Source of the DNA: Orobanche coerulescens
Taxonomy: Eukaryota > Streptophyta > Magnoliopsida > Lamiales > Orobanchaceae
NCBI GenBank assembly: GCA_033398695.1
Contig: CM065815.1
Span: 147,109,001-147,173,000, forward strand
Direction: 5' to 3'
Length of the DNA stretch: 64,000 bases
Shown here piece after piece: positions 15,129-36,412 of the stretch. A program made the position numbers and the translations under genes. Position 1 is the first letter of the stretch. Each line of letters begins with the position of its first letter. Under the pieces are notes generated by a model. That model was given only the letters and a program-made list of their open reading frames with translations. It did not search any database and was not told the origin of the DNA.

Positions 15129-15236
15129 GGGATCTCTCTTTTTTAGTACCAAAGCATAAAAATAACAAGTTATATATCCTCATTCATAAAACTATAAGTT
15201 TTTTATACCAAAATGTGTTAAAAGACTTTATTACCC
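15129..15236 (+). repeat. MULE left terminal inverted repeat
   Basis: Starts GGGATCTCTCTTTTTTAG. It matches the complement of 36302-36412 over about 110 bp, including the shared block TATCCTCATTCATAAAA, then TATAAGTTTTT and a CCAAAA/AAAGACT part. Identity is roughly 75-80% by eye. The preceding nine bases are TATATATAT. Confidence 0.85.
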
Positions 15237-15551
15237 TTAAAGTCTACCACTAAAAGATAAAAAAAACATACAAAAATAGAAGATTATTAAAAGCAAACAA
15301 CAATAAAAAATAGAAAATTATTAAAAGCAAACAACAATAATCTAAATGGTCCCACAACTCAATATTTTCCTATGCAAAAAAACTCTCCTTATCTCTCTGC
15401 AAAAAAAACTCTCCCGTCGTGAAACCCTTCGCCGGCCAGAAAATGTCGAACTCCGACTACCACAGAGAATCTGAAGACGCCAGAAGTTCCGCTAGTGACA
15501 CTCCATCTGAAGAGGAATTCGTCAATGAGCCGCCGGTTAGTGTATTTTTAT

Positions 15552-15600
15552 TCACACACGATCGTGCCACGACGGTTGTTCATCGTCCCACGATGGTGCT
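15552..15600. promoter_or_regulatory. CACGATCGTG motif array, intron 1 (left of Tat insertion)
   Basis: Just inside intron 1 of the DUF1985/Ulp1 gene lie one perfect ACACGATCGTG and the half-sites CCACGACGG, CATCGTCCC and CCACGATGG within 50 bp. It belongs to the same array as 27740-27930; the Tat element was inserted between them. Confidence 0.75.
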
Positions 15601-15623
15601 GAAGAAGATGACACCATCTTGTA

Positions 15624-16587
15624 TGTTGTTACCCAAAATATTATCCGAAGATAGTATTGCTGGAATGATCGAGTAACAAACAAATGCGAGAACACTTCCG
15701 TGGGAAAATAGATAACACAAGATTTGCCGGGGTTGTTAATCCCGGGCTTGAATGCTCTTGCGAGATGTTATTAATAAATATACTGTTGAGTACAAATATT
15801 AATGTTAGAATCTATTACAATGAGTGTAAAGACTTCTAGTTATCTAAGCTGTAGAGCGTGTAGATTGCCGGAAGAACCAGATATGTAGATCTGTGAGTTC
15901 TTGCTTGGGATGTATGATATGTGTATATGAATATCACTATGAATGTGAAAGTGATTGCCAGATGAGTCTTTGATTCTCTCTCTTTGTGTATTTTGCACTG
16001 TATTCACGGTAATATCACTGCTCCTTTTAGCCACTGTTATGAGCCTCCTATTTATAGGGCACAAGGTTGCTGGGACCTCTCCGGCGATCGCGGGCGACCG
16101 CCGTTTTCTATATTATAATCAGATGGCCAATCGTCCTGTCACGTGGGGCTGTCCCCTTAAAGTCTGGGGCTGCTGCTGGTGGCCAGCTGTGCGAGCCAAT
16201 GGGAAGCCAGCACGCGTCTTGGGTCGCTGTCCGGGGAGGGCCCACTTTGTACTTTTCGGCGGCCCTGTCGGTAGGTGAGGTAGATGACAGGCTGGGGTCA
16301 AAGGTCCTATCTGTCGGCGCCCTTTGTGGATCTACACGTGGGCCACCGTCCAAGATTCGGTCTTCGACGACTTTGACAGATGTTGGATCCATACGTGGCA
16401 CGAGACGATCGTCTCTGGTTCGCACATCAAAGACGATCGCCAGGTAACAAAAGACGATCGCTGGGTACTAAAAGACGATCGACGTATGTCCCGATCGCTG
16501 GGCGTTTGCCCGAGTATGTCTTCTATGGTTGGCTTCTCCGATCGTGATGCCGATCGCCATCGAGGCGTATTAATCGCCGCACAACAA
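15624..16587 (-). repeat. Tat 3' LTR
   Basis: This 964 bp LTR starts TGTTGTTACCC and ends CGCACAACA. It is closely similar to 26794-27739, except for a divergent block around 16160-16250 and a small insertion near 16562. In element sense a TATA box (CTATAAATAG, + strand 16049-16057) follows a U3 rich in GACGATCGC words (16400-16560). The G-rich tract next to its right end (CTGGGGGGC on the minus strand) is the polypurine tract. Confidence 0.9.
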
Positions 16588-16924
16588 TTGCCCCCCAGCT
16601 CGCTTCGATGTTTGAAAACACGGGGTGAGGTGGCACTGTTGGCGATCGCCAATGTTTAGACGATCGGGCGATCTGATTTCAAATTTGGACGATCTTCTTT
16701 TGCGCTGGGAGCAGCGGGAAATGAAGGCGGGCTCTCGAAACGTTGCAAGGACACGCGTCGCGCTACTGTTGGGGGAGTCTGACGGTTTGTCAGACATGTC
16801 GCCTGGCGTGCCCTCGAAAAGACATGTACGCGGGATTCGAGGGCAGCATTTATTGTGTCCACTCCCGACGGTTGCACTCCAGCCCTCGGAATTTCACCTA
16901 TTTGCATAGAGACCCCTGCTCCCG

Positions 16925-16936
16925 CCTATAAAAGGG
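16925..16936 (+). promoter_or_regulatory. TATA box of the Tat antisense gene
   Basis: TATAAAAG at 16927-16934 lies about 150 bp upstream of the ATG at 17081 and 340 bp inside the element from the LTR edge. It is followed by a pyrimidine-rich stretch (GGGCTTCTTCATTTTCACTC) typical of plant transcription start regions. It gives the antisense gene a promoter independent of the LTRs. Confidence 0.65.
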
Positions 16937-17080
16937 GCTAGGGCTTCTTCATTTTCACTCTTCACGCACCCTTGCATTCTAGCCGAAACTCTGCAGAAAT
17001 TTCCGAAGCTTCTTGTGCCGATCGTCTTTCTTTTTTTAGGTAAGAAAACCAATCTTCTTTCTCCCTTTTCTTTTTATAAT

Positions 17081-19807
17081 ATGTCGGGAGGATCTAAGAC
17101 CTTCGAGACCGGAAGCACTTCCGCCGCCGCGGCTTCGCCTGACCGGGAGGAGATTCCCATGGGACTTAATATGGAAACGGCCGTTGAGGCCATTCGTGCG
17201 GGGATTGCTCCCGCAGAACTCGAAGAGCTCTTCAACGAGGCCGAAGTGGCGAGAACGGCGGCGACGGCGGAGCAGGGGGGCTCGCCGGTGGATGAAGATG
17301 ACCAGGTGCGGATGGCTTGGGAAAGGGATAGTATATTTGGCCCCGCCTATGTGGCTTTCACCAAGATTATGGAGGGGATCGCCGGACCCTGTCCGGAATT
17401 TGACTTTGAAGCTTACTCCGCCGCTCATCCTTACGAACATGTGAAACGGACGGTGTTTCGGTCCGCCGACCCATCTCAGTGGACCCTTGGTAAGATCCGG
17501 AGTTCGGATACCCGGAAAGACTTGAGCCGCTGGAGGGCAAAATATCATATTCCCTCTGACGTTTCCCTGCACGTGCCCTCGGAAAATGAACGTGCCGATC
17601 AACCGCCCGAGGGTCTGGTCGCCGTTAGTGAGATGATCATGGAGGCCGGTCTGCGATTCCCTTTGCCGTTCGCCATCTCCTACTTATTGATCGCCTGGAA
17701 TTTGGCGCCGCTTCAACTGACGCCGAACGCCTGGCTACAGGTCATCTGCACTTTGACACTCTTCGGCAGGTCACCAGTTGTTCCGCCTCCTTTCTGCGAT
17801 GGAGATGAACTATCTCTTCAAACTGGCTGCGCAGAAAGGGTCGATCGGCGGTAATCATATCCAAGGCCGAATGGTAAGAGTGGTCCTCGGTGTGACGAAC
17901 AAGGCCCGGGGCGATCTGGCAAAATGGTGCTGGGTCGGCGGGGCATGGCGATCGGCATCGAGTGACAGGCCGGAGGAGGAGTTGGAGATTCCCACCAATT
18001 TTCGGGAGAGGAATACGAGTAAGGGTTTTAACTCTCCCTTTGATCGGACTTGTCTTGAACTGATCTAATTTCGTTTCCTTTTTGCAGGACCTCTTGTTCC
18101 AGCGATCATCGATCTCCCTTTCAATTTCTTGATCGTTTGGGAGCGAATTCGCGCTTTACTGGACTCCTACATAGACGTTCGCTCCCTCGGTCGCGAACTC
18201 CATCGGTTGGGGGCTCGATTGTTTCGCTTCCCACGTCATCTAAAAGTTCCAGGTATAAATTTTACTTCTTCTTCCTTGCTTTGACGATCGTCTCCAGGAG
18301 GTCGCAACGTCTAAGTAGTTGTCTAACTTGTTTGTACTTCTTCTTTGACAGAGATTCACTTTCCCCTTTTTACCGAGCCACCACCAGAGATCGCCATGTC
18401 TAACCCAGGACTCATCGGTCGCCTTCACTAGGGTAAGAAGACTAGTCGTGTTCCTGCGACGACGTCTCGCCTTGTTCCGGTGGTGAGGCCTGTCGTGGTG
18501 CCGGTCGCCGAGCCGGAAATTCAAGAAGACGAACAACTCCAGCGCCGCAAGAGGCAGAGGCCGGAGGAGTCCATGCCAACCACTGAGGCAAACATGTCTA
18601 TTCTGGAGCCTCCGGTTGCCGCGACTCCTATCTCTGTCGTTCCGATGGTGGAGGGATCAGGCTCTAGGCTCTCGGCGTCCGGCTCCAGGTCATCGGGCGG
18701 CTTCTTGAAAAAGGTGGCGATCGCCGAGGCTGAAACTCCTCGGGGCAAGCCTTATTTTGGCCGCGATCCCGAGCTGGTCAACCGGTAAGGTTGGATTGAA
18801 CTTTCCGAGTTGTGCATTTTGAGTAAGGTATAAGCTAACTCCTTGGTCTCCTTTGTTTGTGCTGCAGGGTCCGTCTTGCTGACCCGGACGTCGCTCCTAT
18901 GGTGCTGGATTTCTTGTCGAGTAAGGCTCCGCAAAAGTCCCTCGATGTCCCTACTTACGTCCAGAAGGCCATCACCTCACTGCCCCAGGCTTGGACGACT
19001 GATCTTAATGCGATCGCTCGTCGGTGATCTGGAGATACTATGCAGACGACCATTGCCCTGGCTCTCCAAACGGCGACGATGGCCGTCCAAGCCGCCAGGG
19101 ATTTTGAGGGGCGACCTTCTACTGCTCGCCTCCATAGCGACCTCGAGGCCGCCCGGAACACAAACATTGAATACGCCAACCGGATCCAGTCTATGGAGAA
19201 GGAGTACATAGAGACGGCCAAACGAGCCAAACAGGACGTCGACCGACTAAAGCAAGAGATGAGCCGCTCCAAGGAGGCTGCCGATCGGTTTCGTGATCAG
19301 GAGAAAGAAACTCGCCGGAAGCATGCGGCTTCGCAGGAGGAGGCGGCCGGGCTGAAGGCGACGGTGGATCGGCTCAGCAGCGAGTTAGAGGCGGCGAAAA
19401 GAGAGCTGGAGGAGGCCAAAGGAGAAAACTCCGCCAAGGTGGTTGAGCTGGCGGAAGCTAAGAAGACGACCGTGGAGTTGAAAGGGCAGCTGAAGGCGAT
19501 CGAGACCGATCCCTACCTCAATGTGGCACTCGTCGGCGAGTTCGCCTATTATGTGGCCTACGCCGATGCTGTCAGAGCCGCCAAGAAGGTAGGGATCGAG
19601 ATCGATCCTTTGATGGAGAGCTTCAAGGTCTATGTGCTTGAGCACCCTTTTCACCCGGAGTTTTCCTTGCCGATCCTCGACCTCGTCGACTTGGGGGTCG
19701 ACTTGAGTTGGTATCCTTTTCCGGATAAACTAATTCGTCCTGAGGCCGATGGGGGGGCGCATGCCGATCCGCCACCTGAGGGTGAACACCAGCCGGCGGG
19801 ACCCTGA
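17081..19807 (+). pseudogene. Tat antisense gene: Transposase_28-like domain plus coiled coil
   Basis: I propose exons 17081-18018, 18088-18252, 18352-18784 and 18868-19807, all GT-AG with matching phases. The N-terminal part resembles the plant 'putative gypsy type transposon' family (Pfam Transposase_28), with MEAGLRFPLPFAISYLL and LTPNAWLQV. The last exon encodes a long coiled coil (EAADRFRDQEKETRRK, LSSELEAAKRELEEAKGE) and a Pro-rich end. Defects: an extra T near 17771 shifts the frame, a TAG is at 18429-18431 and a TGA at 19025-19027. Antisense extra ORFs between pol and the 3' LTR are known in Tat/Ogre elements; their function is unknown. The gene has its own TATA box and converges with pol. 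Confidence 0.72.
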
Positions 19808-20876
19808 GAGATCTATTTATTTTCCTTGTATCTTGCAATTTCCTGCTTTCTCTTTGTATTGCCTTCGGGTTTCGTATTGTACGAACTTTTTTTGATAATG
19901 AATGAAATATTCCTTTTTCGCACTTGTGCCTTTTTATGTACGATCGCCTTTGAATGTTTGCATGCGAATTTTTACAAGTATGTGTATGATTGCATCCGAT
20001 GTCTTGTTCCTCCGACCGGTTGTTTGAATATTGAATGTATTGACATGTTTCGAATTGAAATTCTTACTTGTAAATTTTGTCGAACAATTCCGATCGTCCT
20101 GCGTGTGTTTTTGCGAAGCCGATCGGGTGCGGTTCCTTCGATCGTATCCAGGACTAGCTCCCCTTCTTTGCCCCTTTTTTTGTTTACTTATTGTAAGTAA
20201 GGGAACAAAAAATAGTTTGTTTGGCGAGCTATCCTCAGTTTTGCCGACTCTGAAGAATCGTGCACGGTCGCGGAGTTCGATGGACCGACCTCCACAACCG
20301 TGTCTTTGTGTGTGAGGGACATCGCCTATCACGCGACTCACTTTATTGTGAGGGTCCTCCATTAGGCTGCGCCTGCCTTGTATTTAAACGAAAAGAGGGC
20401 GGTCTTGGTCTGGAGGAGTCCTTGCACGGGGCGTCGTCGGTTTATTCGAATCCACGTCCGTGGCTTGTTAACTCTGCTTCCACCTCGGCCCACCATGAAG
20501 ATGGCGACCCTCGACGGTGTACGTTGAGACGGGGGTGGTGGCACGTCGCGTTGTCCGGGTTCACTATGTTAGATGATAAACTTTTGAGGGCGGGCGATCG
20601 TGTCCACTGATTAGTTTTGGAGGGTCCTTCGGCTACGCTGGCCTCAAATTTAAACGAAGGGCGGGCAATTTCAGCCCAAAGGAACCTTGTATGGGCGAAG
20701 CTGTCGGTTCCATCGACATCCAGGACCATGGATGCATTGATTCTACCCCGGATCGCCATGAACTACGATCATCGGCAGTATGCGATATGCCTGGTGGGGC
20801 GATCGCCAGAATGGGATAGGAAAAAATCTTATTATATTCTCTGTACATTGGGTAGTTGAAACTGAATACAAATTTT
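19808..20876. other. spacer between the convergent Tat antisense gene and pol
   Basis: About 1.07 kb without a supported gene. It should hold the 3' untranslated region of the antisense gene (ATGAATGAAATATTCC near 19898 is a plausible polyadenylation context) and the untranslated region after pol on the other strand. Several near-repeats recur around 20270-20640, for example GGCTGCGCCTG/GGCTACGCTGG and ATTTAAACGAA, suggesting a local duplication. Confidence 0.5.
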
Positions 20877-21200
20877 TCACTGGTAGTACTTCTTCAAATG
20901 TACGGCGTTCCAGGGATATTGATCCGGAGTGCCGTCAGGGTGTTCAAGTTCGTAGGCTCCCTTAGTCAGCCATTTAGATATCCTGAAGGGGCCTTCCCAG
21001 TTCGGACCAAAGACACCTGTGTGGGTCTGGATCTTTTTGAGGACGAGATCGCCTACTTGAAAGCGTTTTTCCTTGACCTTCGAATTGAAGAACTTCTCGG
21101 ATCTCCTTTTATGGATTGCATTTTTCATTTCTGAGGTCAGTCGTCGTTCTTCGAGCATGTCGAGATCGATCTGTCGGGCCACATCATTGTCGGTCATCAT
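20877..21200 (-). pseudogene. Tat integrase C-terminus (frame-shifted from pol)
   Basis: The tail of integrase reads FQVGDLVLKKIQTHTG, then FGPNWEGPFRISKW (the GPY/F-type module) and ends VHLKKYYQ. It is in a different frame from the main pol segment. The two overlap by 17 bases at 21184-21200, so one frameshift near 21190 separates them. The stop at 20877 is the natural end of the polyprotein. Confidence 0.85.
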
Positions 21201-23979
21201 CTCTTTGTTCGGTTCGATGGCTGAGGACGGCGATCTCCGAGGGGATCACCGCTTCTGTTCCGAAGGCGAGGGCAAATGGGGTTTCACCGGTTGAGTTACG
21301 GGTCGTCGTTCGATAAGACCACAAAACGTCTGGGAGCTCGCTTGCCCATCGTCCTAGCCTGGATTCGAGTCGCGCTTTAATTATGTGTTTGAGGATCTTG
21401 TTCACAGCCTCCACCTGCCCGTTCGTCTGAGGTTGATAGGGAGCCGAGAACAACCTTTTGATTCCCCACTTCTCACAGAATTGCATGACTTCTAAGCCGT
21501 CGAATTGCTTTCCGTTGTCGGAGATGATGACCTGGGGCAGACCGAATCGGCATATGATGTTTCTCCAGATGAACTTGATTACTTGCTCTTGGCCGATCTT
21601 GTTGAGCGGTTCGGCCTCAGCCCATTTGGTGAAATAGTCGACCCCTACAATGGCAAACTTACAACCCCCCGGTGCCGTCGGCAAGGGACCTATAAGGTCG
21701 ATGCCCCATTGCGCGAATGGCCACGGGCTGTACATTGAGGTGAGCTGCTCGGGGGAGAGTTTGATGTTTGGTCCCATTACTTGACACATGTGACACGATC
21801 TGGCATAGGCGATCGCATCCTTCTGAAGTGACGGCCAGAAGAAACCTTGTCTGGTTGTTTTATGGATGAGCACTCGTCCGCCAGCATGGTTTCCACATAT
21901 CCCGTCATGGATCTCGGCTAAAACGAGCCGACCTTCCTCCGGTGTAATACACTTGAGTAGGGGAAGGCTGAAAGCTCGCTTATAAAGCCGGTCGTCCAGT
22001 AGGGTGTATCTGGTTGCACGGAGCTGGAGTTGGCGAGCTTTGATACGGTCGTCAGGGACCGTTCCGTATTTTAAGTATTTGACGAACGGAGTCATCCAGT
22101 TCTCCTCGGCAACAACAATCGTGGTAACCAAGCTCCTGTCGATCGCCGGCCTTGCTAATTTGGTAATTTGGATATTAGAGAAATCGGCTGCCCCATCTGA
22201 TGATGCTAGTTTGGATAGGGCATCGGCCTGGGAGTTGTGCTCTCTCGGGACTTGTTCGATTAGCACTTCCTCAAATTTTGTGCACATTTCGGCGACCAGC
22301 TCTTGGTACTTGACCATCTGCTCGCCGCGCGCCTCATATTTTCCCCTGACTTGGTTCACGACTAAGAGGGAGTCCATGAAGATATGGAGGCGATGAACAT
22401 CTAGGGCGAGGGCTAGATCGAGCCCGCCTACCAAGGCTTCGTATTCGGCTTCATTGTTGGTCGCACAAAACCCGAAACGCACGGCATTTGTGAAACTTTG
22501 GCCGTCGGGGCTAATGAGGACAATCCCTGCCCCTGCTCGCGAGTTGGTCGCCGAGCCATCCATGTATAACTTCCAGGCAGGTTGGCCGATCTGGGTCGGA
22601 CTGGGAGGGAATGTTAATTCCACCACGAAGTCCGCCAGAGCTTGGCCTTTGATCGCCGTGCGAGGAGCGTATGTGATACCGTATTGGGCGATCTCCAGCG
22701 ACCATTTGAGGAGTCGCCCGTTGGTGTCCGGTCGGTGTAGGACTTGCCTTAGAGGTAGAGTTGTAAGGACTTCCACTTGATGTTCGAAGAAGTAAGCTCT
22801 CAGCTTACGAACACTCATGACAAGGGCATAAGCGATCTTCTCCAATGGTGTATAACGAGTTTCAGCGTCATGGAGCGCTTGACTAACATAGTAGATCGGC
22901 AAGTGGACTTGTCCCTCCGCTCGCACCAAAACGGCACTCAGTGCGACCTCTGAGGCTGCCAGGTAAAGGAATAGTTTCTCACCGGGGATCGGCTTTGCCA
23001 GGATCTGGGGGTTAGATAGATATTCCTTTATTTTGGCGAACGCTACTTGACTCTCCTTCGTCCATGCGAACTTCTTGTTCTTTATGGTCGCGAAGAATGG
23101 CTTACTTTTATTGCTGAGCCGAGATACGAAACGGTTGAGGGCGGCTAGACAACCTGTGAGGCGTTGCACCTGCTTGACGTTCCGCGGCTCCTGCATGTCG
23201 AGGATCGCCTGAATTTTGGTGGGGTTCGCCTCGATCCCCCTCTGGCCCACGATGTGCCCCAGGAATTTTCCATAGCCCACCCCGAAGTTGCATTTCTTGG
23301 GGTTCAGTTTCATGTTGAACTTCTCGAGGATGGCGAACGTCTCGGCGATATCGTTGAGGTGATCTTCCTTCTTGAGGCTTTTGACTACGATATCGTCAAT
23401 GTAGACCTCCATGGTCTTGCCAATCTGATTAGCGAACATTCTGTTGACTAGACGCTGGTAGGTTGCCCCTGCATTCTTCAAGCCGAATGACATTCGGACC
23501 CAAAAGTATATGTCCTTTTCCGTGTGGAAAGATGTGTGCTTTATGTCTTTCCCCGCCATTGGGATTTGATGGTATCCGGAGAAGGCATCCATGAACGACA
23601 TCATTTCGCAGCCTGCAGTACTATCGACCAAGTGATCGATATGAGGCATTGGAAAGTGATATTTTGGACATGCCGCGTTGAGGTCGGTGAAGTCGATGCA
23701 TAACCTCCAGGAGCCAGTTGGCTTTTTGACGAGCACCGCGTTGGCGACCCATTGTGGTTCGTCTGTAGCTACTCCGATCAATTTGTTCTTGAGTAACTTT
23801 TGGACTTCTATGTCGAGCGCCGCGTATTTCTCGGGACCGAATTTCTTACGTTTTTGGTGAACAGGCTTCATTGTCGGGTCGATCTTTAGATAGTGGCAAG
23901 CGTGCTCGGGAGTTATGCCAACCATATCTTGATGCGACCAGGCAAAGACTCCGATGTTCTTTCGTAGCAAATTGATCAT
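21184..23979 (-). CDS. Tat RT, RNase H, second RNase H and integrase
   Basis: This 931-codon frame encodes the pol enzymes in order. RT (about 1-270) has SWRLCIDFTDLN, MSFGLKNAGATYQR and the catalytic YIDD box. The first RNase H (about 290-440) has LFLYLAASEVALS, where the usual catalytic DAS appears as AAS. A second archaeal-type RNase H (about 470-600) has WKLYMDGSATN, NNEAEYEAL and HNSQADALSKLAS. Integrase has the HHCC finger (HDGICGNHAGGR, CHMCQ), the catalytic Asp in WGIDLIGPL, IISDNGKQF and the Glu in NGQVEAVNK. The double RNase H is diagnostic of Tat/Ogre. The frame continues upstream without a shift to the protease segment through one TAG (24061-24063). Confidence 0.93.
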   Translation of the reverse strand: MINLLRKNIGVFAWSHQDMVGITPEHACHYLKIDPTMKPVHQKRKKFGPEKYAALDIEVQKLLKNKLIGVATDEPQWVANAVLVKKPTGSWRLCIDFTDLNAACPKYHFPMPHIDHLVDSTAGCEMMSFMDAFSGYHQIPMAGKDIKHTSFHTEKDIYFWVRMSFGLKNAGATYQRLVNRMFANQIGKTMEVYIDDIVVKSLKKEDHLNDIAETFAILEKFNMKLNPKKCNFGVGYGKFLGHIVGQRGIEANPTKIQAILDMQEPRNVKQVQRLTGCLAALNRFVSRLSNKSKPFFATIKNKKFAWTKESQVAFAKIKEYLSNPQILAKPIPGEKLFLYLAASEVALSAVLVRAEGQVHLPIYYVSQALHDAETRYTPLEKIAYALVMSVRKLRAYFFEHQVEVLTTLPLRQVLHRPDTNGRLLKWSLEIAQYGITYAPRTAIKGQALADFVVELTFPPSPTQIGQPAWKLYMDGSATNSRAGAGIVLISPDGQSFTNAVRFGFCATNNEAEYEALVGGLDLALALDVHRLHIFMDSLLVVNQVRGKYEARGEQMVKYQELVAEMCTKFEEVLIEQVPREHNSQADALSKLASSDGAADFSNIQITKLARPAIDRSLVTTIVVAEENWMTPFVKYLKYGTVPDDRIKARQLQLRATRYTLLDDRLYKRAFSLPLLKCITPEEGRLVLAEIHDGICGNHAGGRVLIHKTTRQGFFWPSLQKDAIAYARSCHMCQVMGPNIKLSPEQLTSMYSPWPFAQWGIDLIGPLPTAPGGCKFAIVGVDYFTKWAEAEPLNKIGQEQVIKFIWRNIICRFGLPQVIISDNGKQFDGLEVMQFCEKWGIKRLFSAPYQPQTNGQVEAVNKILKHIIKARLESRLGRWASELPDVLWSYRTTTRNSTGETPFALAFGTEAVIPSEIAVLSHRTEQRDDDRQ

Positions 23980-24060
23980 ATCCCCTTTTAATTCGCGGTC
24001 GATGCTTGCGCCGATCTGTACTTCCCGTTCCGGATGAGCCGGATCTATCGTTATATTTTC

Positions 24061-24825
24061 CTACTCTTCGATGGGGACGGTCGCCTCTCGTTTGGAACGA
24101 TTTCCGGACTCGATCCTAGGATCGATATCGAGACTTGGCTTGAAACCGATCCTCGGCTCGATGTCGTCCGTTAATCGATCCAAGATGGCATCTTCCGAGT
24201 CGGGTTGGTACGATGTGTTTGGCTCGTCGATCTCCATGGGTTGATTGTCGATCGTTTCAATGTTACACATATCATGGGAAGTATTGAAAGCAGTTACGAC
24301 ATAGGAGTAGTTCAAACATTTCTTTGCCATTAGCTGATCTCCTTTTACAGTACCGACCGTCCCATCGGCAGTGGGGAATTTGATACAGTAAAAGAAAGAC
24401 GAGGCGACCGCCTCAAAGGTTTCTAAAAAGGGGCGACCTAGGAACCCATTATAGATGCTGGGCCTATCTATGATTACAAAATTTAGGTTCCTAGTAATCC
24501 TAACCTTGGGATCGTAAAAGCATATTAGCTCGACAGAGAGCTTGATCCTTCTGTAGGCTTGGACTGTGCTGTCGCCGAACCCTTGAAGCACGGTGTCGAA
24601 CGGCTTGATAAACTTGGTTAGGTTGCCGAGCTGGTCCAGGTCGGATTTGAATATAATGTTGCAGAAGCTCCCGTTGTCGACCAGTACGCGATCGACCGTC
24701 TTTCCAAGGATACAAGCAGAGATCACCAATGCATCTTCTTTGGGGCATTGTACTCCCTCCCTGTCCTTGTTGGAGAAGGTGATGAGCGCGTCTTTAGAGA
24801 TGGTCGGCTCTGAAGGCACCGACAT
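24061..24825 (-). pseudogene. Tat aspartic protease region
   Basis: Same frame as the RT-integrase segment, separated from it only by a TAG at 24061-24063. It contains ITFSNKDREGVQCPKEDALV, then the protease active site VLVDNGSFCNIIF and the downstream YNGFLGRPFL motif. DNG replaces the textbook DTG; I recall such variants in Tat/Athila proteases, so I do not treat it as a clear loss. An acidic linker follows (DEPNTSYQPDSEDAILDRL). Confidence 0.85.
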
Positions 24826-25303
24826 GGACCCCGGCGAACGCCCTCAGTTCGGCTTTTCGCTTCCTGTTTGACATAGTGGAAACCGGGGAAAGGCCCCCCG
24901 AGGTTTCCACCTCCTGCTTGAAACATATTGATCCGACCGCCAGGGTTGATCGGAGGGATCGATTCATCGGAATATTTCGGCTCATGCTCGATCCTGGTGA
25001 CCGGATTGGGAGGGTTCCTTTCGTTTTGTCGGCACTCGCGCCCTCCGGTCCTCTCTGCCCGGGGTTCTGGCTTGGTGACCAAGTTGACCAATTTGCCTTC
25101 CTCAAACAGTCGCCAAAGTTGTTTGAGGAGGTCGCGGCATTGGCTGGTGTTGTGGCCGGGACTTTTGTGGTAGGCACAGAATTTACTGCGGTCTAGATGA
25201 CTGTGGTCCCTTATTGGCTTTGGTTTGGAAAGCCATTCGCGCCCCTTGATTGCGTTGAAGATGTGGGCCGGAGATAAGTTGAGGTTGTGGAGAAGGTGGA
25301 CCT
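24723..25303 (-). pseudogene. Tat gag C-terminal and gag-pro linker, frame-shifted
   Basis: After the frame change near 25300, the minus strand reads KGREWLSKPKPIRDHSHLD and KFCAYHKSPGHNTSQCRDL. The latter is the CX2HX4HX4C finger typical of Tat Gag. LVNLVTKPEPRAERTGG, then GGRINMFQAGGG and FHYVKQEAKSR follow. It moves to the protease frame near 24800. At least two frameshifts are needed to join gag to pol here. Confidence 0.7.
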
Positions 25304-26665
25304 CTACATCCTCGAATGCTTTGAACTCACCGGGTGGCTTGGCGACCGCCTTTCTGGCTTGGCGACCGCCTTCTTCTGGACATGGGACGGCGCCTTTCCT
25401 TCTCCGGCAGATCCCTCGCCTAAGCGGAGGGAGAGCATCCTCTGCCTGGCCAGGAAATCGACGGCTCTGCCGCGAAAGACCGAGTAGGTCGGGGGGATAT
25501 CCTTTGTGAGGTGCCTGAACATGGGCGAGCGTCCGTGGAATCAGCTCAGGACTGAGTGGAGAGCGAGCTCGTCGCTGATGGGCTCGCCGGTGAGGACTAT
25601 CTCATCTACCCGGTCGATGTAATCTTCATCTGACTCATCCTTCCCCTGCCTGATTTTCATCACGTGGTGGGGACCTTTCGGCCGAGAAACTTTGGCGGCG
25701 AAGTACGATGTGAAGTCGTTCGCCAGCTTCTCAAAGCAATTGATTGAGCGAGGTGGTAGTGAGATGTATCACCTGTGGGCGAGGTCGCCCAGAGTTAGTG
25801 GGAACATACGACACTTAGTCACATCTGATGCTCCACACCCGGTCATATAGATCCGGAATTTGCTCAAGTGGGTCTCCGGATCCGATCTCCCCTCATATAG
25901 AGGTGTTTGTGGGGGAGCGATCTTTGGTTGGACTGGAGCGAGCTCGATCTGAACCGCGAGTGGTTCACTTGGCCCAGCGATCGATCTCCTGGCGCCTGCC
26001 CCAGTTTCCAGGAGCACCTTCATCTCGTCGAGCTGGCGTTGCATGGCGGCCATCGTCGTTGCCTGACTGCTCGCCGATTGGCTCCCGGAGCGTGAGCCAA
26101 GGCGATCGTGTACTGATCCCCTGGCCCCGTGGTGAATGACGAGCTCTCTGCCAGTGGGTTCATTTCTTGGGCGAGCAGGGGCTCGCTGACCGGCTTGTCT
26201 CCTGGGAGTTGGATATGCCGAACTCCTGGTAAAGGATTCGGACTCCGATGTCTCCCGGCTGGGGCCTGAGTGCCCGGGTCGCCATGAGGGATCGCTCCCT
26301 AGGCGGCTGAAGACGGAATCGTCCCGCCTCACAAGAGCCTTCTCCTGCGGCTCGGGGCTTTCTGTCGATTTCTCAACATAGATCCCCTTGAGCTTCTGTT
26401 TGCCTGCCCGGCGGATGGCTGACGGAGTGATGGTGGGCGAATCGCAGGCCCTCCGTCGCTCCCTGAGGATGGATATAGCCTCCTCAATCTGTTCCGCTGT
26501 CTGGAACTGATCGAGTGAGAGGCTAGAACCGTCCCTCGGGGGCGGGAGTGAGAGCCTAGCGTCGCCACGGTCGCCTTCCACCGTGGGATGGGATTCGGTC
26601 CGGGCCGAAACGAGATTTCCGGCGGATCTTAGGGTGGCTCTCTTGGAAGTTGTAGCAGAAGTCAT
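25304..26665 (-). pseudogene. Tat gag with two in-frame stops
   Basis: The preferred start is ATG 26663-26665 (MTSATTSKRATLRS); an upstream in-frame Met at 26710 is possible. A basic, Ser/Arg/Pro-rich N-terminus is followed by a short helical segment (AAMQRQLDEMKVLLE), then PLYEGRSDPETHLSKFRIYM and CRMFPLTLGDLA, the standard start of the plant Gag capsid domain. A TGA (25769-25771) stands where Trp is expected (AHR-stop-YIS). A second TGA follows near 25550 (VLS-stop-FHG). The frame is otherwise open to 25304, ending in a Lys/Arg/Pro-rich part. Confidence 0.8.
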
Positions 26666-26793
26666 TTTTCTGAAGGCTTTTCTGTTGAAGAACAGTGAGT
26701 GTTTCTTCAAGTATATGTCCGGAGAACAGTGAGTGTTCTTCGAAACGGTAGGAATAAAAATGAAGGTCTAGATGCCCTCCTTCGAGCGCCAAT

Positions 26794-27739
26794 TGTTGTT
26801 ACCCAAAATATTATCCGAAGATAGTATTGCTGGAATGATCGAGTAACAAACAAATGCGAGAACACTTCCGTGGAAAAATAGATAACACAAGATTTGCCGG
26901 GGTTGTTAATCCCGGGCTTGAATGCTCTCGCGAGATGTTATTAATAAATATACTGTCGAGTACAAATATTAATGTTAGAATCTATTACAATGAGTGTAAA
27001 GACTTCTAGTTATCTAAGCTGTAGAGCGTGTAGATTTCCGGAAGAACCAGATATGTAGATCTGTGAGTTCTTGCTTGGGATGTATGATATGTGTATATGA
27101 ATATCACTATGAATGTGAAAGTGATTGCTAGATGAGTCTTTGATTCTCTCTCTGTGTGTATTTTGCAGTGTATTCACGGTAATATCACTGCTCCTTTTAG
27201 CCACTGTTATGAGCCTCCTATTTATAGGGGACAAGGTTGTTGGGACCTCTCCGGCGATCGCGGGCGACCGCCGTTTTCTATATTATAATAATATGGCCGA
27301 TCGTCCCGTCACGTGGGGCTGTCCCCTTAAAGTCCTTTCTTGGTGGCTACCAGGCGAGCCAATGGGAAGCCGGACGCGCGTCTTGGGTCATTTGTCAGGA
27401 GGGCCCACTTTGTACCTTTCGGCGGCCCTGTCGGTAGGTGAGGTAGATGACAGGCTGGGGTCAAAGGTCCTATCTGTCGGCGCCCTTTGTGGATCTACAC
27501 GTGGGCCACCGTCCAAGATTCGGTCTTCGACGACTTTGACAGATGTTGGATCCATACGTGGCACGAGACGATCGTCTCTGGTTCGCACATCAAAGACGAT
27601 CGCCAGATAACAAAAGACGATCGCTGGGTACCAAAAGACGATAGCCGTATGTGCCGATCGCTGGGCGTTTGCCCGAGTATGTCTTTTATGGTTGGCTTCT
27701 CCGATCGTGATGCCGATCGCCATTAATCACCGCACAACA
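26794..27739 (-). repeat. Tat 5' LTR
   Basis: This 946 bp LTR matches 15624-16587. The TATA box is on the minus strand at 27219-27227 (CTATAAATAG). U3 to its right has repeated GACGATCGC words (about 27565-27720), including the palindrome AGACGATCGTCT. Left of 26794 the primer site reads TGGCGCTCGAAGGAGGGC on the minus strand, starting three bases from the LTR; I do not assign the tRNA. Confidence 0.9.
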
Positions 27740-27930
27740 GTGTACACGATGGTCTTTCGTGGGCACGATGGTTTACACACGACGGTCGTCGATCGTGTGT
27801 GTCGTCGTGTGCTAGAAGACCAAAGGCTCCTGCCCTGCACACGATCGACGCCCGTCGTGTGAGCCATCGTGTGGCACACGATGGTCTTCACACGACGGTC
27901 ATGGATCGTGTGCCTGCCATCGTGTGCAAG
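27740..27930. promoter_or_regulatory. CACGATCGTG motif array, intron 1 (right part)
   Basis: Within 190 bp of intron 1 there are more than a dozen half-sites or whole sites: ACACGATGG, CACACGACGG, GATCGTGTG, CACACGATCG, CATCGTGTG. The array runs up to about 70 bp before the splice acceptor of exon 2. It is separated from 15552-15600 only by the Tat element. Confidence 0.8.
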
Positions 27931-27998: not shown

Positions 27999-28846
27999 AC
28001 TGGTTGCGTATGGAAGAGACCTACATTGCGTTTTGTTACACGTCAAGTGAATCTTTACATACGGGAGGCGGTATTTAAAGAGATCATTGAGACACTAAGA
28101 AGTATGGGCCGCAATTCCGCAGTTGCTGATCGATCTATCGAGAGCTTGACCGAGGGGGTCCTGGGGCGCTTGATTAAAGTTAGGAGAAATGGGAGTTCAA
28201 ATACTGCCCTACATCACTTGATTTCCCGTCAATTGGAGGGTGATCAAATCCCCCCGGATGAGTCATGGTTCCAGGTTTGCGGGAGGACCATTCGTTTTAC
28301 GGCCCGTGATTTTGCCATGATCACTGGACTCCATTTTGGAAACTCTACCTTCCATCCACAGGACGACCATCTCCTTCCGTCTGACGGTATTTTCCACAGA
28401 ATACTCCATGGCAAAAATATTAAGGTTAGTGTTCTGCGTAAGAGGTTCAATGCTCGAGATTTTGGTAGAGACATAAGAGATTATGTGAAAGTTGCCAATT
28501 TGCTTATATACTACTACTTTATCCTATGCCGTGACGACATGATGGTCGAGACATGGGCATGGGCATTAGTTGAGGATTTCGAGCAGTGTGATATGTTTCC
28601 TTGGGGTTCTTATGCCTTTGGGGTTTTATCTTACTACATAGGCAACGTTGCCATGAAGGAGGGACAAGAGCACAAGGACTATCACTTCTATGGTCCTGTT
28701 TGGGCTTTACAGATATGGTCGTATGAGATGATTCCTTCATTGGGAGCATTGTGTGGTATTCGAGAAAATCTGTCCAAGTCCCCCGGTGTTTGATGTGGAC
28801 TACGAGGAAGATGTTTTGTGATGTCACTCATTTCTTCGACGATAAG
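27999..28846 (+). pseudogene. exon 2: DUF1985-like domain
   Basis: The acceptor is TATTGCAG/ACTGG. The translated exon begins TGCVWKRP and shows DUF1985 hallmarks: a helix-rich start, ESWFQVCGRTIRFTARDFA, then MITGLHFG and a C-terminal WALQIWSYEMIPSLGALCG block. The frame ends falsely at a TGA (28791-28793), because the C-run before GGTGTTTGATG seems one base short. One frame over, the sequence continues CLMWTTRKMFCDVTHFFDDK to the donor GATAAG/GTACAT. In this family that block normally follows directly, so I read a single-base frameshift rather than the true end. In Arabidopsis VANDAL elements DUF1985 proteins act in sequence-specific anti-silencing. Confidence 0.75.
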
Positions 28847-28942: not shown

Positions 28943-30304
28943 CACAGAGTACTTCCCTCTTTACCGCATCTGGAGGAGGATGAGGCTGAGTACTACTACC
29001 TGAGCTTTGAGAATGGCTCGCCATATGACGTTAAGTTCATTAAGACTGTAAGAATAGCTGTGAAGAACAAGGAGGATGAGCCTGCGCCGATCCCGAGAAA
29101 GAAAGTTATGGATAGGTTGAAGAAGGCTGCTGGGAAATTGATTACATATGAGTCGGCACATAAAGTGTCGAAGCGACGCCGGCAGAGTACCCCACTAGTA
29201 GATGGTGCAGAGACATCGGACCGGGAGAGGCAGCCAGAGAGGGTGTGTTGTGTCCACGGACTTCCTTGTCCGAACCACACCCAGGGCATGAGCAGGGATG
29301 AGTACTTCGATCGCCGTTTGAAGGCGGTCTTGTACGACGAGTCCGAGACAGGATTTATTGCTCGAGTTTCTCGCCGGGTGCTTTCTGGGATCGTGGATTT
29401 CTTCGAACCTACGCATAGACGTTCTAGGAGCCCGGTGCACTACTCAACTGGGAGCCATGATAGGCCTCGTCATTCTGCATCAGTTAGCAGCGCCCAGCGG
29501 AGGATTCCTGACCCTCCACGTCACTCAGTCTCTGGTGCAGCCCACAGTCACCATTCTCAACGTCAGCCTAGTCACCATTCTCAGCGTCCGCCTACCCACC
29601 ATTCTCAGCGTCCGCCTACCCACCATTCTGAGGTCCACCACAGTCACCATTCTAAGATCCAGCACAGTCATCATTCACAGATTCATCATTCTTTTGAGCG
29701 GACTCAGCAGTCCCTTGATTACGAGCATCAGTATGAGCCATTTGACGTGCCGTTTCAGCAGTATGGGACGATGTTCGACTGGTTTCAGGACGAGCATCAT
29801 TATAGTGCGATGTTTCATTGTGAAGGTGGTGGTCCTCAGCAGCAACCTCCATTTCAGATCGAGCAGCCAGTTTTTGAGATCGAGCAGCCGGCTGTACAGC
29901 TCTCTGATCGTTATAGTTGTGAGAGGGATGCTGAGGGTGATGAAGATGGTGAGAGTGCCGGAACGCAGCATTTGGGTGAGCGTAGTCTTCCACCGCGAGT
30001 GAGTCGACCATCTGCTGCTCTTCGGGAGCCTTTTGTGGTTGCGCTTCCAAGAGATAGCGAGGCTCTGAAGAAGTTGTACCTACACTTTAGGAGGGAGCAG
30101 CCATGTGATGATATTGTCCGGTGTTTGGAGACTGGGCATGCTCTCACACAGACGTTATTTGACCGGATAGAGTATAGCCGTGAAGACTTTGATGCCGAGG
30201 TGATAGACTGTTATGTGCTTGCGACTCGAGTGAGGCTTCGGAGGGGAGTCCGTAGTGTTGGTGTCGGTAGAGTTGGCACTGTACTTGCCGGCTCCCAATT
30301 TTAC
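28943..30304 (+). CDS. exon 3: linker with His-rich tandem repeats
   Basis: It is open throughout from the acceptor TTTTGCAG/CACAG to the donor TTTTAC/GTAAAT, and phase 0 at both ends. It encodes an acidic start (LEEDEAEYYYLSFENG), a basic stretch (KVSKRRRQS), the Cys/His motif CCVHGLPCPNH and a region DEYFDRRLKAVLYDESETGF. Between about 29545 and 29695 lies a His/Ser-rich tract built from repeats such as HHSQRPPT and HHSHHSK. A Gln/Glu-rich part and a helical block near LPRDSEALKKLYLHFRRE follow. The His repeats look like recent expansion. Confidence 0.72.
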
Positions 30305-30385: not shown

Positions 30386-31058
30386 TTAGTTTTGGCCAAC
30401 GAGTTTGCAAGACTCCATCCGGATGATCCACTTGGTATCAAGGTGACAGGGAAGCCGGTTTACAAGGATTGGAAAATTCGTAAATGCATCGAGGACTACA
30501 TGACAGGTCTTGATACACCACATGCGGTTCCATGGTTAAATTGCAACGAAGTAAGTTTGAAATTTATATTTATAAATGATTCGCTATGTTTGATGTGATG
30601 ATCTTATATGATTACATATTTTGTTTCAACAGATCATTGCCATTTGTTGCCTCGACCAGAGCCACTGGGTGACTATCAAGATTGACATCATAACATGGAC
30701 CGTGGAGTTGTACGATTCCTTGTCACACCAACACGAAGATGGTCGATACCGATTCAACCAACTGCGATCGATTATGCTTCTGATGCCTCGTGTGCTAGCT
30801 CAATCCGGGTATTGGCTGAACAACCAATCGAAGAAGAAGTATGACACGGAGATGAGTTTCAAAATTATGCCACGAGAGCTATAGTTCATACAAAACGACA
30901 ATCACAGTTGTGGCCCCTTCGCGTGCATGTACTTGGATCGACCCGTCTCTGCAAACCCAGGAGCAAGGCACCAAATCAAGGAACTTAATGAGAAATATAT
31001 TAAGAAATATCGATATGGTTTAGCTGCTAAAATCTTTATGTTGTCTTTAGACATGTAA
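30386..31058 (+). pseudogene. exons 4-5: Ulp1-like (C48) cysteine protease
   Basis: Exon 4 (30386-30550) encodes VLANEFARLHPDDPLGIK and ends ...PWLNCNE at the donor GAA/GTAAGT. Exon 5 (30633-31058) begins IIAICCLDQSHWVTIKID. The catalytic His is in SHWV (codon 30663), an Asp in ELYDSL follows, and the Cys is in NHSCGPFACMY (codon 30909). A TAG at 30882-30884 lies between Asp and Cys, so the predicted product loses the nucleophile. After it the frame is open to TAA 31056-31058. Ulp1 enzymes cleave SUMO precursors and SUMO-protein bonds. Confidence 0.75.
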
Positions 31059-31187
31059 AATGGTTTATGGCATGTTGTGTTGTGGCAAGATTAATGTGTC
31101 GTGTTGTTAAATATTTATGTTGTATTTAGACAGTTTTGGCAATATGAATATGTCGTGTTGTTAAATCTTTATGTTTTGGCTCTGTGT

Positions 31188-31462
31188 TACACACGATGGA
31201 TGAACACGATCGTGGCCATCGTGGGTAACAATCGTGTTGTGTTGTTAAATCTTTATCTTTTGGCTCTGTGTTACACACGATGGATGCACATGATCGTGGC
31301 CATCGTGGGTCACGATCGTGTGCAACCTGCCCACGGTCATGGGTTGATGCTGTCGTGTGCGCACGATGGCTGCCATGACCGTGTGCACACGACCGTGGGT
31401 CCCATCATGGGCACGGCCGTGTACACGATCGTGTGTCCCATCGTGGGCATGACCGTGTGCAT
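31188..31462. promoter_or_regulatory. CACGATCGTG motif array, 3' of the DUF1985/Ulp1 gene
   Basis: The array begins 130 bp after the gene's stop. It contains three exact CACGATCGTG sites and many variants (CACACGACCGTG, GCACGATGG, CATCGTGGGC). A ~75 bp block is tandemly repeated: the phrase TTTTGGCTCTGTGTTACACA occurs twice (about 31173 and 31257). Confidence 0.8.
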
Positions 31463-31819: not shown

Positions 31820-31985
31820 TGCACACGATCGTGTGTCCCATCGTGGGCACGACCGTGTGTCCCATCGTGTGCATACATGGATACAGTGCAAATTTGACAC
31901 CATAGGCACCGTGACATCTGGTTGCCAACGTGTCACACGATCGGAGCACACGATCGTGCCCATCGTTTGCACCATCATGTGTACT
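31820..31985. promoter_or_regulatory. CACGATCGTG motif array between the two + strand genes
   Basis: It holds two exact CACGATCGTG sites, a truncated CACGATCGG and several CATCGTG/CACGACC half-sites, ending about 175 bp before the ATG of the small gene at 32161. The 31463-31819 stretch before it is AT-rich and shows nothing else. Confidence 0.78.
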
Positions 31986-32160
31986 GCAAAGGGCAACATC
32001 AAATTATTTTATTATAAAATCCCATCGTGGGCCCCCCCTTTTTCAATATAAGCCCATCTTCATTGACTGAGAGTGAAATACATAAACCGTAGCCCCCCTT
32101 TTCACTACAAACCCTAATCAATTAACATCAGTTAAAATCCAATAAAATCAAATACGCGAA

Positions 32161-32527
32161 ATGAGCGGCCGATTACAAGAAAGCGATTTAGGAGGAATCG
32201 AAGCACCACCACCAAAAAGAAGAAGGAGGATACCTCCTCCCAACCCACCATACAGAACTAGGTCGAGAGGAAGATACTCAATGCTCAGAGTAAGTTTTTT
32301 GATTTTGTTCTATGTGTAGTGTGTACTGCGAATTAATGTGTTTCATGAAACAGGGCCTATTTATAAACACTGCGAGCACTCCAGTCATACTAGATGGTGA
32401 TGATGATAATGATTTGGAGATTTCTGAGAAGACAAGTAAAGAAGTTATTTTAGAAGAGGAAGTTCATGAAGATGGTGATACAAGACTAAAGATACAGCAG
32501 CAGATGGGGGAAAAGGGATCCAAGTGA
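32161..32527 (+). CDS. small MULE gene: basic patch plus two SUMO-interaction-like motifs
   Basis: Two exons, 32161-32289 and 32354-32527, join in phase 0 across a 64 bp GT-AG intron (AGA/GTAAGT ... AAACAG/GGC) and encode 100 residues. A TATA-like ATATAAG lies near 32045. Residues 19-23 are KRRRR between proline runs, a probable nuclear localisation signal. Residues 54-63 read VILDGDDDND and residues 74-79 VILEEE. Both are hydrophobic triplets followed by acids, the form of SUMO-interaction motifs. The C-terminus is charged. I recognise no family. Its neighbours encode an Ulp1-like SUMO protease and the transposase, so a link to SUMO is an attractive inference. It is open, with good splice sites and no defect. 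Confidence 0.62.
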
Positions 32528-32861
32528 TTGTGGTTTTTAAGTTATTATTAGATATTTTGATGTGATGGTGATGAACTTTTGTTTTGTAAAGTTATATGCT
32601 TTGAATATGCTTTTGCTGTAAACTATTGCTCTTTAAAGTGAGCTACTTTGTTATGGTTAATGTTTGGCTCCATAATCACCTTTATTTGCTTTACATCACT
32701 GAACACTTAAATTTCAATTCAAAGATAAAGAAAATAGACACAAAATTATGCATTTCAACTAATAATCAGAATACTGATTCAATACATGGTCCATCGAGGA
32801 TCAAAATATCAGCACATGATTGTTGCTAGTAAGTCACAAAATATAAAAATACATAAGCAAT
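32528..32861. other. AT-rich spacer between the small gene and the convergent transposase
   Basis: The two genes converge here. I see only AT-rich untranslated sequence and no motif array. Confidence 0.6.
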
Positions 32862-35713
32862 TTAAGTTTCATGGTATGGACATCCCCTTATGTCATGGTC
32901 ATCATTTCGGCAAATGCTACACCTCTTCTTCTGCCGGCGCCTTTGCCTCATTTGTTCATCCATTCCTTGAGTTTCTTCAGGGATATTCAAATCCACACCA
33001 CCTATGGGAATGAATGCTTTGCAATATTTTCTATTGTGGCCGGTTCCTTTACACCTACCGCACACCTGAGGCCGTCCACCTGCGGGCAAATTTTCAACAG
33101 CGGACCATGCGCGACTCATCCTTGGTCGGTCGGCTTGTCGTACCCCCTCTGGAGGTATGCAAACGATGGATGAGATCTCCGGTGGGACATTCCACTCATC
33201 AGGATGTGGGATGGGACTAATATGCTCCTTATAAGTCTCTCTAAGGCCTTGTTGCTTGAAATAACGACTAACAAAATCATACACGGACAAACCATTGCTG
33301 GCGCACCTGTTACAATAAGCAATTATGTCAAGGATGTTGTATAGGATAATGTATTTTTGATATTGATGATGTGTAGGATAAATCCAGACCAGCCCTGTTT
33401 TGTGGCAGAACACGATCGTGCCGATCGTGGGTTACGATCGTGCCGATCGTGGGTTACGATTGTGCCGACCGTGGGTTACAATCGTGCCCATCGTGGGTTA
33501 CGATCGTGTGCATTCTGCCATGATCGTGGGCACGACCGTGAGCGTCCTACAACACCCGCATGCCCATGGCCATGACCGTGTGCACACGACAGCATAGACA
33601 AAAATATTGAATGGCCATGACCATGTGCACACGACAGCATAGACAATTACCTTATAGCGGCAACGGCATGACGACATGGAATCTGATCCAAATCAAACTC
33701 ACAACAACAACATGTCCATGTTTGAAGGTCGACCTCATAAGAAACTTTATTTTCTTCGACTTTATAAACAAGTGGGGTGGTAGCTCGAACGGTAAGAGTC
33801 AGACTCGCTTGCACAAAGTTAGAAAGCTTTTCAAAAGTGTGCATTGTCAACTCATGGTCTCTTGATGTAGCTTCTCCCCGCTTCTCATCAAACTAATTCT
33901 CTAAAATTAGGCGAAATATCTCAAGTAACGAGCAAACAGGTAAACGCCTCGCCCACAACATACGATTATTAAAGCATTCAACAGCATTGGATGTCAAGAA
34001 GTTATAGAATCGTACCGGACACTTCGACCTAGCCCACCTCTCTGGCCCAATTTCAGAAAGGCGCCTGTGAGCCCCATTAGGGCTTTCGATATGTAGTTTC
34101 GAAAAGTAATTTTCCAAAACTTCTTCACGATGCATGTAGGCAGCAGTTCTAAAGAGTCCTATAGCATGTGCACCGTAGGAGGTCAGATTTTTTGCAAGAT
34201 GGTGATAGCACAACCCGTGGAATGCATTCGGATAGACGGCTCGAACAGCATTCTGAATGCTCTTATGTTGGTCACTCACAATCAGTAAATCTTCCATCGG
34301 ATTGTAGCATCTGCGCAGGTTATACAGAAAATAAGTCCATGACTCGTCGTTCTCTATCGGACCGAGACCAACTGCAAGAGGAAATACTTGCTCGACGGTC
34401 GCAAATAGAGTTCCTTTATTCCTTCCCTTCAGGTGGGTCCCATCAACTATAATCACCGGTCGAAGACACGTATCAAATGCCCTAATACTCTGTCCGAGTG
34501 CAACGAATATGTGGCAAAACACTCCCTCACGAGTCGTCTGCAAATCATAAATTGTCCTTGGATTACGCTGTTTTAACAAATACAGATAAGATGAGAGCCT
34601 CTTATACGACTCATCAAAGCCGCCATATGTATTCTCTATCGCTATATTCCTCGTCCGGAGAGCAAAACTGTATAGCATGTCAATGCCGTACTCCCTACAC
34701 ATCTCTGCAATCATCTCCTTTGGCCTCAAAGTGACCCCCTCACCGGTCAATCTTTTAGCAAAATAATGTGCGGCAACCTCAGAAGTGACCGATCGTGCGG
34801 CAGCACGGTTCAAATCAGGGTGACAGCTTTGCTCCAATGTCAACTTAGTAATTCTCCAAATAGTTGCACCCTCAATAGCACACAACCTAAACTGACAATT
34901 TTTTCGTCCACTCTTACAGACAAACACTATACGTTTATCGGTGGAACGATCAGTGATACACTGTAGCATGTTTTCCAAATGATACATTCCTACAGTTATC
35001 CTCAACTCTGTCTTGGAACGAAAGGTGGACCCCACCTCTAGCTGACCGGTAACCGGTGGAGGCTGCTCGACCCAACCCAAAGTCCCGGCACTACCGGGGT
35101 CCGGAAATGTAATGATCCAGTTACGCATTGATTGTAGATGCTAATGCTCGCTCGCAGATTGATGGTCGGATGAGAAGTTCTGACGACTCATAATCCTATC
35201 CATTTGGTCCGGTTGGCGAACCCAAGCAAGAAATTCCGCAGATAGTGACTCAAGCAAGTCTTTACAACAATCTTCATCTTCGGATGTATGCACCTCCTCA
35301 TCTTTCTCGTCTTCCTCATCTTCCTCGTATTGATACTCTTTGGAAGGCATGTCATAATTTATGTTGCCGGGCTCTACTCTCGAGCTGCTACATCCCATAT
35401 TAACCTCGGGAGTGGAGGAGCTGCTGTTCTCAAAATAGACCTCAGGTTCCTCCTTGTAATCTACTAGTAATCGAAGTATCTCGGTATCGCCCCGTAATAG
35501 GACTTTTACTTTGTTTCCCTCGGCCATGTGTGTCAAGTACCATAATTTGTAATCGGACTCATTTGGACCACCCAAACCCTCTCTGATAACCCCCACGAGG
35601 TTTGCACGACTAACTTTGCTCGTGTCGATATAGACAAAAAAGGAGTCCCCGTCTACATATGTCGATCGCTCCCAATGACCACCGTGATGTATCAAAATAC
35701 GCTGCCACGACAT
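32862..35713 (-). pseudogene. MULE transposase (MuDR-type), two exons
   Basis: I propose exons 35713-33651 and 33306-32862 with a GT-AG intron; the codon AGG is split across it and the frames agree. The N-terminus has a MuDR-like domain and an acidic stretch (EDEEDEKDEEVHTSEDEDCC). The catalytic core follows with Asp in VIIVDGTHLKGRNKG, Asp in LLIVSDQHKSI, the CYHHLAKN motif and Glu in SNAVECFNNRM. The SWIM zinc finger CCCCEFDLDQIPCRH closes exon 1. Exon 2 ends with knuckles CGRCKGTGHNRKYC and CSICRNDDHDIRGC. Two TAG codons interrupt the frame (35141-35143; 33893-33895, where Trp is expected), with no frameshift. The enzyme would cut and transpose the MULE from its terminal repeats. The exon 1-2 intron holds a motif array. 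Confidence 0.9.
33405..33645. promoter_or_regulatory. CACGATCGTG motif array inside the transposase intron
   Basis: Regular alternation of ACGATCGTG, CCGATCGTGGG and TTACGATCGTG units at about 18-20 bp spacing fills 33405-33520. Degenerate units (CATGACCGTGTGCACACGACAG) appear twice near 33572 and 33618. The array lies wholly within the intron and stops at the exon borders. Confidence 0.82.
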
Positions 35714-35775
35714 CTGATTACAAAAAGATGAATAACTATTCAGAAAACTGAGCGAACAATATTATAAAACGGTCT

Positions 35776-35995
35776 GCCTTGGACACGACCGATGCACACG
35801 GTCGTATACTACCGTGTGCAGTGATCGTGTGCAAGTTTCTGGCCATGAACACGATCGCTGCACACGATTGTAGACGATCGTGTTAAACGATCGTGAACAC
35901 GTTAGTGGTGCGCACGATGTCAAGGTCGTTGGACACGATCATTGCACACGGTGGCTTCCCATCGTGTGCAGCGATCGTGTCCGTAAGAATAGATC
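35776..35995. promoter_or_regulatory. CACGATCGTG motif array upstream of the transposase
   Basis: Starting about 60 bp upstream of the transposase ATG, this 220 bp array has GACGATCGTG, AACGATCGTG, ACACGATCGC, CACACGGTCG, GATCGTGTGC and CATCGTGTGC. It would lie in or near the transposase promoter. Confidence 0.8.
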
Positions 35996-36301
35996 GAGAA
36001 ATCTTTTTTCCCAGCGGTCAAATACTGATGCATACCTTCTTTATGAACCCAGAAGAACGACAAATGAAGTCCTATTTCAACGTCAACTTTTCTTTTCGAA
36101 TAATCTTGTGATTTCTATAAGATTTTTGAGAGACCCTTTGTCAAAAATGTTTGTGTTGTTTTGATGTATATGTTTGTAGTTAAATTTTGGTTGTTGGACA
36201 TTAATATCGATCGGAGCAAATGAGGAAAATAAAAAAGAAAAAAGAGAAGAAAAGTAGTTTAAATTAAATAAAAAAAAGTGAGAAGTCAACATTACAACAA
36301 A

Positions 36302-36412
36302 GAGAGGACATTTTAGTCTTTTTAATCAAAATGGTACTAAAAACTTATAATTTTATGAATGAGGATATAAAACTTATCAATTTTATGATTTAGTATTAAA
36401 AAATTGATTCCC
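36302..36412 (-). repeat. MULE right terminal inverted repeat
   Basis: Its complement starts GGGAATCAATTTTTTAATAC and aligns with the left terminus at 15129 across about 110 bp. The next nine bases are ACTATATAT against TATATATAT at the left end, a 7 of 9 match in low-complexity DNA, so the target duplication is only suggestive. Confidence 0.85.

Follow-up and report, generated by a model that had tools for sequence, protein, structure and literature searches.

A VANC-like DUF1985 gene and non-coding arrays of a CpG-containing motif in a MULE of Orobanche coerulescens: a probable relic of sequence-specific anti-silencing

Does a MULE of Orobanche coerulescens, which harbors a DUF1985 gene together with clusters of a short sequence, represent a transposon that carries both an anti-silencing protein and the address of that protein? 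The published targets of VANC proteins lie in non-coding DNA, are arranged as tandem repeats and have a motif that is specific to the transposon family, and peptide repeats are found in the VANC proteins themselves (PMC5735166). The element considered here lies within a stretch of 64,000 nucleotides, referred to below as the window, which is the whole of the DNA under analysis at this locus. Its features are collected in Table 1.

Table 1. Features of the MULE and of the element inserted into it, in window coordinates. Exon limits are our own, drawn from related proteins and splice sites.
Feature	Position	Strand	Basis and remarks
MULE	15129..36412		Degenerate terminal inverted repeats of ~110 bp; inverted repeat 79% complementary, and end alignment
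VANC-like gene, exon 1	15443..15535	+	Matches N-termini of Orobanche proteins P0003 and P0001
Motif array, intron 1 left part	15536..15623	.	Matrix sites
Inserted LTR retrotransposon	15624..27739	.	LTRs 15624-16586 and 26794-27739, K2P 0.029; splits intron 1
Motif array, intron 1 right part	27740..27930	.	Matrix sites
VANC-like gene, exon 2, DUF1985 domain	27999..28846	+	PF09331, E 4e-15
VANC-like gene, exon 3, variable region	28943..30262	+	24-bp / 8-aa tandem repeats; 3' end approximate
Ulp1 (Peptidase_C48) exons	30387-30550 and 30633-31058	+	PF02902, E 3.6e-6 on 30633-30881; translation
Motif array 3' of Ulp1 exons	31188..31462	.	84-bp and 36-bp tandem units
Motif array upstream of small gene	31820..32030	.	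12/24-bp tandem units
Small two-exon gene	32161..32527	+	100 aa, basic then acidic; conserved in C8 sibling
MURA transposase gene	32862..35713	-	MULE PF10551, E 4.3e-15; SWIM PF04434, E 7.7e-8
Motif array in transposase gene intron	33395..33650	.	22-bp unit x 4.4
Motif array upstream of transposase gene	35776..35995	.	Matrix sites

The MULE is flanked by AT repeats, and its target duplication is therefore unreadable. Members of the VANDAL clade of MULEs generate a 9-bp target duplication, and their terminal inverted repeats are either absent or short and degenerate. Just beyond the right end of the element, at 36507-36877, are found 42-bp and 51-bp repeat units rich in CGGATAT/ATATCCG. The transposase contains, besides the domains listed in Table 1, two CX2CX4HX4C knuckles that were seen by eye, a CCHC finger that drew no Pfam call; SWIM and CCHC fingers are the combination described for VANDAL transposases (PMC6446971). 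Among 88 matches to the transposase, 75 come from Lamiales genera and four from other eudicots, and none is listed under the name VANDAL. The best match has 62% identity and the best from a named genus, Salvia, reaches 64% over 78%, with the best Orobanche match at only 42%.

The second main gene is assigned to the VANC group by its exon 2, which scores 56.5 bits against PF09331, where the Pfam cut-off is 35.1. Eight of the ten DUF1985 relatives are from Orobanche minor, O. hederae or O. gracilis, with identity of up to 88%. A profile built from nine relatives matches the crystallized VANC21 (9lnj/9lnk) at E 3.3e-4 across the whole domain, the FPWG stretch included, and VANC21 is the sole distinct PDB sequence that this profile matches up to E 10. 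With single sequences the match to VANC21 weakens to E 0.2 and 0.36, and a PDB search with P0004 alone placed an unrelated chain on top (E 0.054); structure models, with mean pLDDT of 43.1 and 42.7, were too poor for use. A weak match to PF10536, the Plant Mobile Domain, also comes from the stretch 27999-28754 of the DUF1985 exon (E 0.0011) and from the relatives P0002 (E 0.0023) and P0004 (E 0.00055), all under the family cut-off; a distant kinship between the two domains, both transposon-borne, is possible. The variable region contains a 24-bp repeat in exon 3, and 8-aa repeats are visible by eye in the O. minor protein P0010, where their number differs from that in the window copy. Downstream of DUF1985 and on the same strand, both in the window and in a sibling copy described below, lies an Ulp1 domain whose exons are presumably part of the VANC-like gene; DUF1985 and Ulp1 were not seen joined in any one open frame or any protein of the databases.

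The clusters themselves were first noticed through a short palindromic core, ACGATCGT. The window contains 14 copies of it where 0.80 would be expected, none of 100 shuffles reached that number, and our recount agrees with the first-pass annotation, which had reported 11 exact cores in the MULE, all non-coding, where fewer than one would arise by chance. These 11 lie in MULE non-coding DNA and the other three in the inserted LTR retrotransposon, with none in MULE exons and none outside. The signal resides in the half-sites, with 51 of 77 copies of ATCGTG/CACGAT and 17 of 17 copies of CCATCGTG in MULE non-coding DNA. The CpG palindrome, however, does not survive as the motif, and we rejected it as the functional unit since the half-sites and a matrix derived from them explain more. 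Iteration of the matrix leads to an asymmetric unit of ~11 bp, GCACACGATSG, that occurs on both strands. Among single-mismatch variants, the CpG is not the most variable part of this motif.

With a loose threshold the matrix finds 74 sites across 1,573 bp of blocks, and the full matrix places its 84 window sites as follows: 67 in the blocks, eight in the LTR element, six outside the MULE, two in MULE exons and one elsewhere in the MULE. When compartments were left out of the matrix training one at a time, with a seed word that still came from all blocks, every held-out block retained 34-47 sites/kb at 10 bits. At this threshold the DNA outside the element has 0.14-0.16 sites/kb, MULE exons have 0.17-0.35, the remaining MULE non-coding DNA 0.54 (one site in 1,845 bp) and the LTR element 0.58-0.74. 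Neighboring sites of the same orientation are 12 or 13 bp apart in 26 of 41 cases, and none of 1000 random placements equaled the periodicity at 12.25-12.75 bp. The 10.5-bp helical period was not seen, as 0.944 of random placements were at least as strong, and tandem duplication alone is able to yield a period of ~12.5 bp. Sites on the plus and minus strands number 3/0, 6/6, 6/12, 3/8, 3/12 and 9/6 in the individual blocks, so that orientation is mixed rather than single.

The positions of the six blocks in the first-pass annotation stand, but their count reduces to five compartments because 15552-15600 and 27740-27930 belong to one intron that has been split by the LTR insertion. The right part of this intron contains variants of ACGATCGT only, with no exact core. 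The tandem unit varies from block to block, being 84, 36, 24, 22 or 12 bp. The arrays could conceivably be binding sites for the transposase of the element itself, internal or subterminal, like the subterminal repeats of other DNA transposons, and two of them (in intron 1 and upstream of MURA) do lie ~0.7 kb or less from the element ends once the LTR insert is discounted. Three others, however, are in the middle of the element, one of them inside the transposase intron, and the terminal repeats have no motif site at 10 bits, which leaves this explanation improbable.

Traces of the intron 1 array can also be found in a relative. The annotation of the O. minor protein P0001, one of the ten DUF1985 relatives, runs on into the beginning of intron 1; the peptide there agrees with the translated intron of the window, including the motif, and lacks the LTR insert. 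A search of 98 proteins with 25 array-derived peptide patterns, at least two being required, gave P0001 as its one match, and the first part of P0001 used as a query returned P0001 alone. In viral contigs, one DUF1985 scan produced seven pattern matches and no relative, and one array pattern produced no match.

A pattern search of the 3.65-Gb genome for two cores 10 bp apart found five places, one of which (C8, in full G000:C8, the window being on G000:C15) is a second full copy of the MULE. By blastn it is 96% identical to the window copy in VANC exon 2 and 93% in MURA, and the small gene that sits between the two main genes has ~93% nucleotide identity with its C8 counterpart. Arrays occupy the same five compartments in C8 as in the window, with 14, 18, 7, 7 and 7 sites. 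The comparison of coding with non-coding DNA that had been proposed for related copies gives 53 sites in 1,319 bp of homologous compartments and two in 5,895 bp of CDS, for a copy that was found through a pattern residing in one of its five arrays. The 28 kb around the C8 copy contain 79 sites in total; 24 of these are outside arrays and exons, ~11 where the array that precedes the small gene is repeated and the remainder scattered or downstream. At another place, C13, 28 kb show no more of the element than a related terminus, which bears a small array, and hold nine other sites; the core-pair places L001 and L002 lack clusters of ATCGTG.

The same comparison bears on a second alternative, in which a 12-bp unit without function has spread by slippage as a selfish minisatellite and been purged from exons only. 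Tandem units do differ between blocks. The arrays of the window and of C8 are of markedly different length, with one block accounting for 172 gap columns, and the DNA upstream of the small gene contains repeats of a ~0.4-kb unit. Set against this, one unit is common to five compartments, in both orientations, and appears in the same five places in the C8 copy; slippage does not seed separate compartments, which counts against growth of this kind and makes it an explanation of small probability.

The inserted retrotransposon, called as Gypsy-type by eye from its open frames, is flanked by the 5-mers TTGTA/GTGTA and lies outside the motif system. Long open frames are present at 16910-17854 and 19028-19807 on the plus strand, opposite to the pol frame. 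The LTRs have their own clusters of CGATCG at 16085-16556 and 27255-27719, eight per LTR against ~0.3 expected, and in the left LTR four of the eight read GACGATCG. Further copies number 16 against 2.2 expected in 16587-21183 and six against 2.75 in the pol part. CGATCG alone is therefore not specific to the MULE, and it was rejected as a signature, being carried by this element and by other DNA (27 copies in ~34 kb that were chosen for holding a core pair and are not a random sample). A third possibility, that a host factor having nothing to do with DUF1985 drives the genes of the element through the arrays as enhancer or insulator sites, would fit with arrays that flank or interrupt those genes and with CGATCG clusters in the LTRs of an unrelated insert, but the ATCGTG half is not enriched in the LTRs (one in each, against 0.5-0.8 expected) and the DUF1985 gene in the same element is a simpler trans partner, so this is very improbable.

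We consider instead that the MULE is probably a VANDAL-like relic with its own sequence-specific anti-silencing pair of the VANC/KIU type, having a CpG-containing target motif. This reading of the sequence is well supported because DUF1985 homology, arrays confined to non-coding DNA and a sibling with matching layout coincide. The DUF1985 protein would bind the GCACACGATSG arrays of its own family and displace or block DNA methylation there, by which the transposase and VANC-like genes would be re-opened, and any array-bearing copy would be served in trans. The units themselves turn over as tandem repeats across the five non-coding compartments.

Both full copies are broken. In the window copy the reading frame of exon 2 is disrupted just 3' of DUF1985, as judged against P0001 and C8, and in-frame TAG stops lie in MURA (33893-33895 and 35141-35143, minus strand) and in Ulp1 (30882-30884, plus strand); in the C8 copy, exon 2 and the MURA frame each contain three stops. 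A long escape from methylation would be expected to reduce CpG decay in the arrays. No such reduction was found between the window and C8, the decayed fraction being 18 of 77 in arrays and 69 of 252 in CDS (p 0.56 by Fisher's test, from which 15 and 17 other changes at CpG, respectively, were excluded), and since decay is alike in the two, nothing in it indicates that the arrays escaped. Relative to other mismatches, the ratio is 2.4 in arrays and 6.5 in CDS, and a coding CpG decay ~6 times the non-CpG mismatch rate would fit gene bodies that were once methylated. A further step, suggested by the CpG in the core, would have DUF1985 binding gated by CpG methylation, with the protein on the unmethylated or newly replicated core directly blocking maintenance methylation; this seems rather unlikely, though the array would in that case be a methylation-sensing switch and not a mere address.

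A transposon protein that binds a clustered CpG-containing motif and undoes methylation is familiar from Spm/En, where TnpA has this role; Spm/En differs from the Orobanche MULE in that it is a CACTA element with an unrelated protein and a motif only near its ends. An EMBO J study of KIU from 2022 reportedly covered about ten systems and the effects of motif density and periodicity. KIU are Ulp1-bearing VANCs whose targets are motifs of their own family, with a domain conserved in eudicots, according to a 2026 review (PMC13317346). The DUF1985 gene with a motif of its own, as proposed in the first-pass annotation, is well supported by the homology, the non-coding arrays and the sibling, but Ulp1-bearing VANCs had already been described, and neither an independent pair nor the attachment of Ulp1 is new. 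In KIU (Kaonashi) a VANC gene is joined to Ulp1, as it presumably is in Orobanche, and own-family motifs are present (PMC13317346); the Orobanche MULE differs in belonging to another lineage, the Orobanchaceae, in its motif, and in the Ulp1 stop of the window copy.

The Arabidopsis systems offer the other comparisons (PMC5735166). VANC21 of VANDAL21 (Hiun) is likewise a DUF1985 protein with peptide repeats in its variable part, to which the profile matches through structure 9lnj, and its motifs form tandem-repeat clusters in introns, intergenic and upstream regions. Repeat number also varies in VANC variable regions. The VANC21 motif YAGTATTAY is without a CpG and lies in one orientation, whereas the core of GCACACGATSG includes a CpG and copies of the motif lie on both strands; degenerate terminal inverted repeats, moreover, are still present in the Orobanche MULE. 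VANC6 of VANDAL6 resembles the present case in that a related VANC has a different family-specific motif, which is also found in an unrelated element, AT9TSD1, but its motif AGTTGTCC/AGTTGTAC has no CpG. No paper on VANC genes in Orobanche was among the matches listed in a subject search made without the motif as a term and covering little of the subscription literature.

If the reading is correct, sequence-specific anti-silencing of the VANC type, with a CpG-containing motif, would extend to a lamiid parasitic plant. Such a case would add another pair of motif and protein to those known for VANC21 and VANC6, of use in understanding how DUF1985 proteins read DNA, and the motif may represent a possible address for the targeted loss of DNA methylation.
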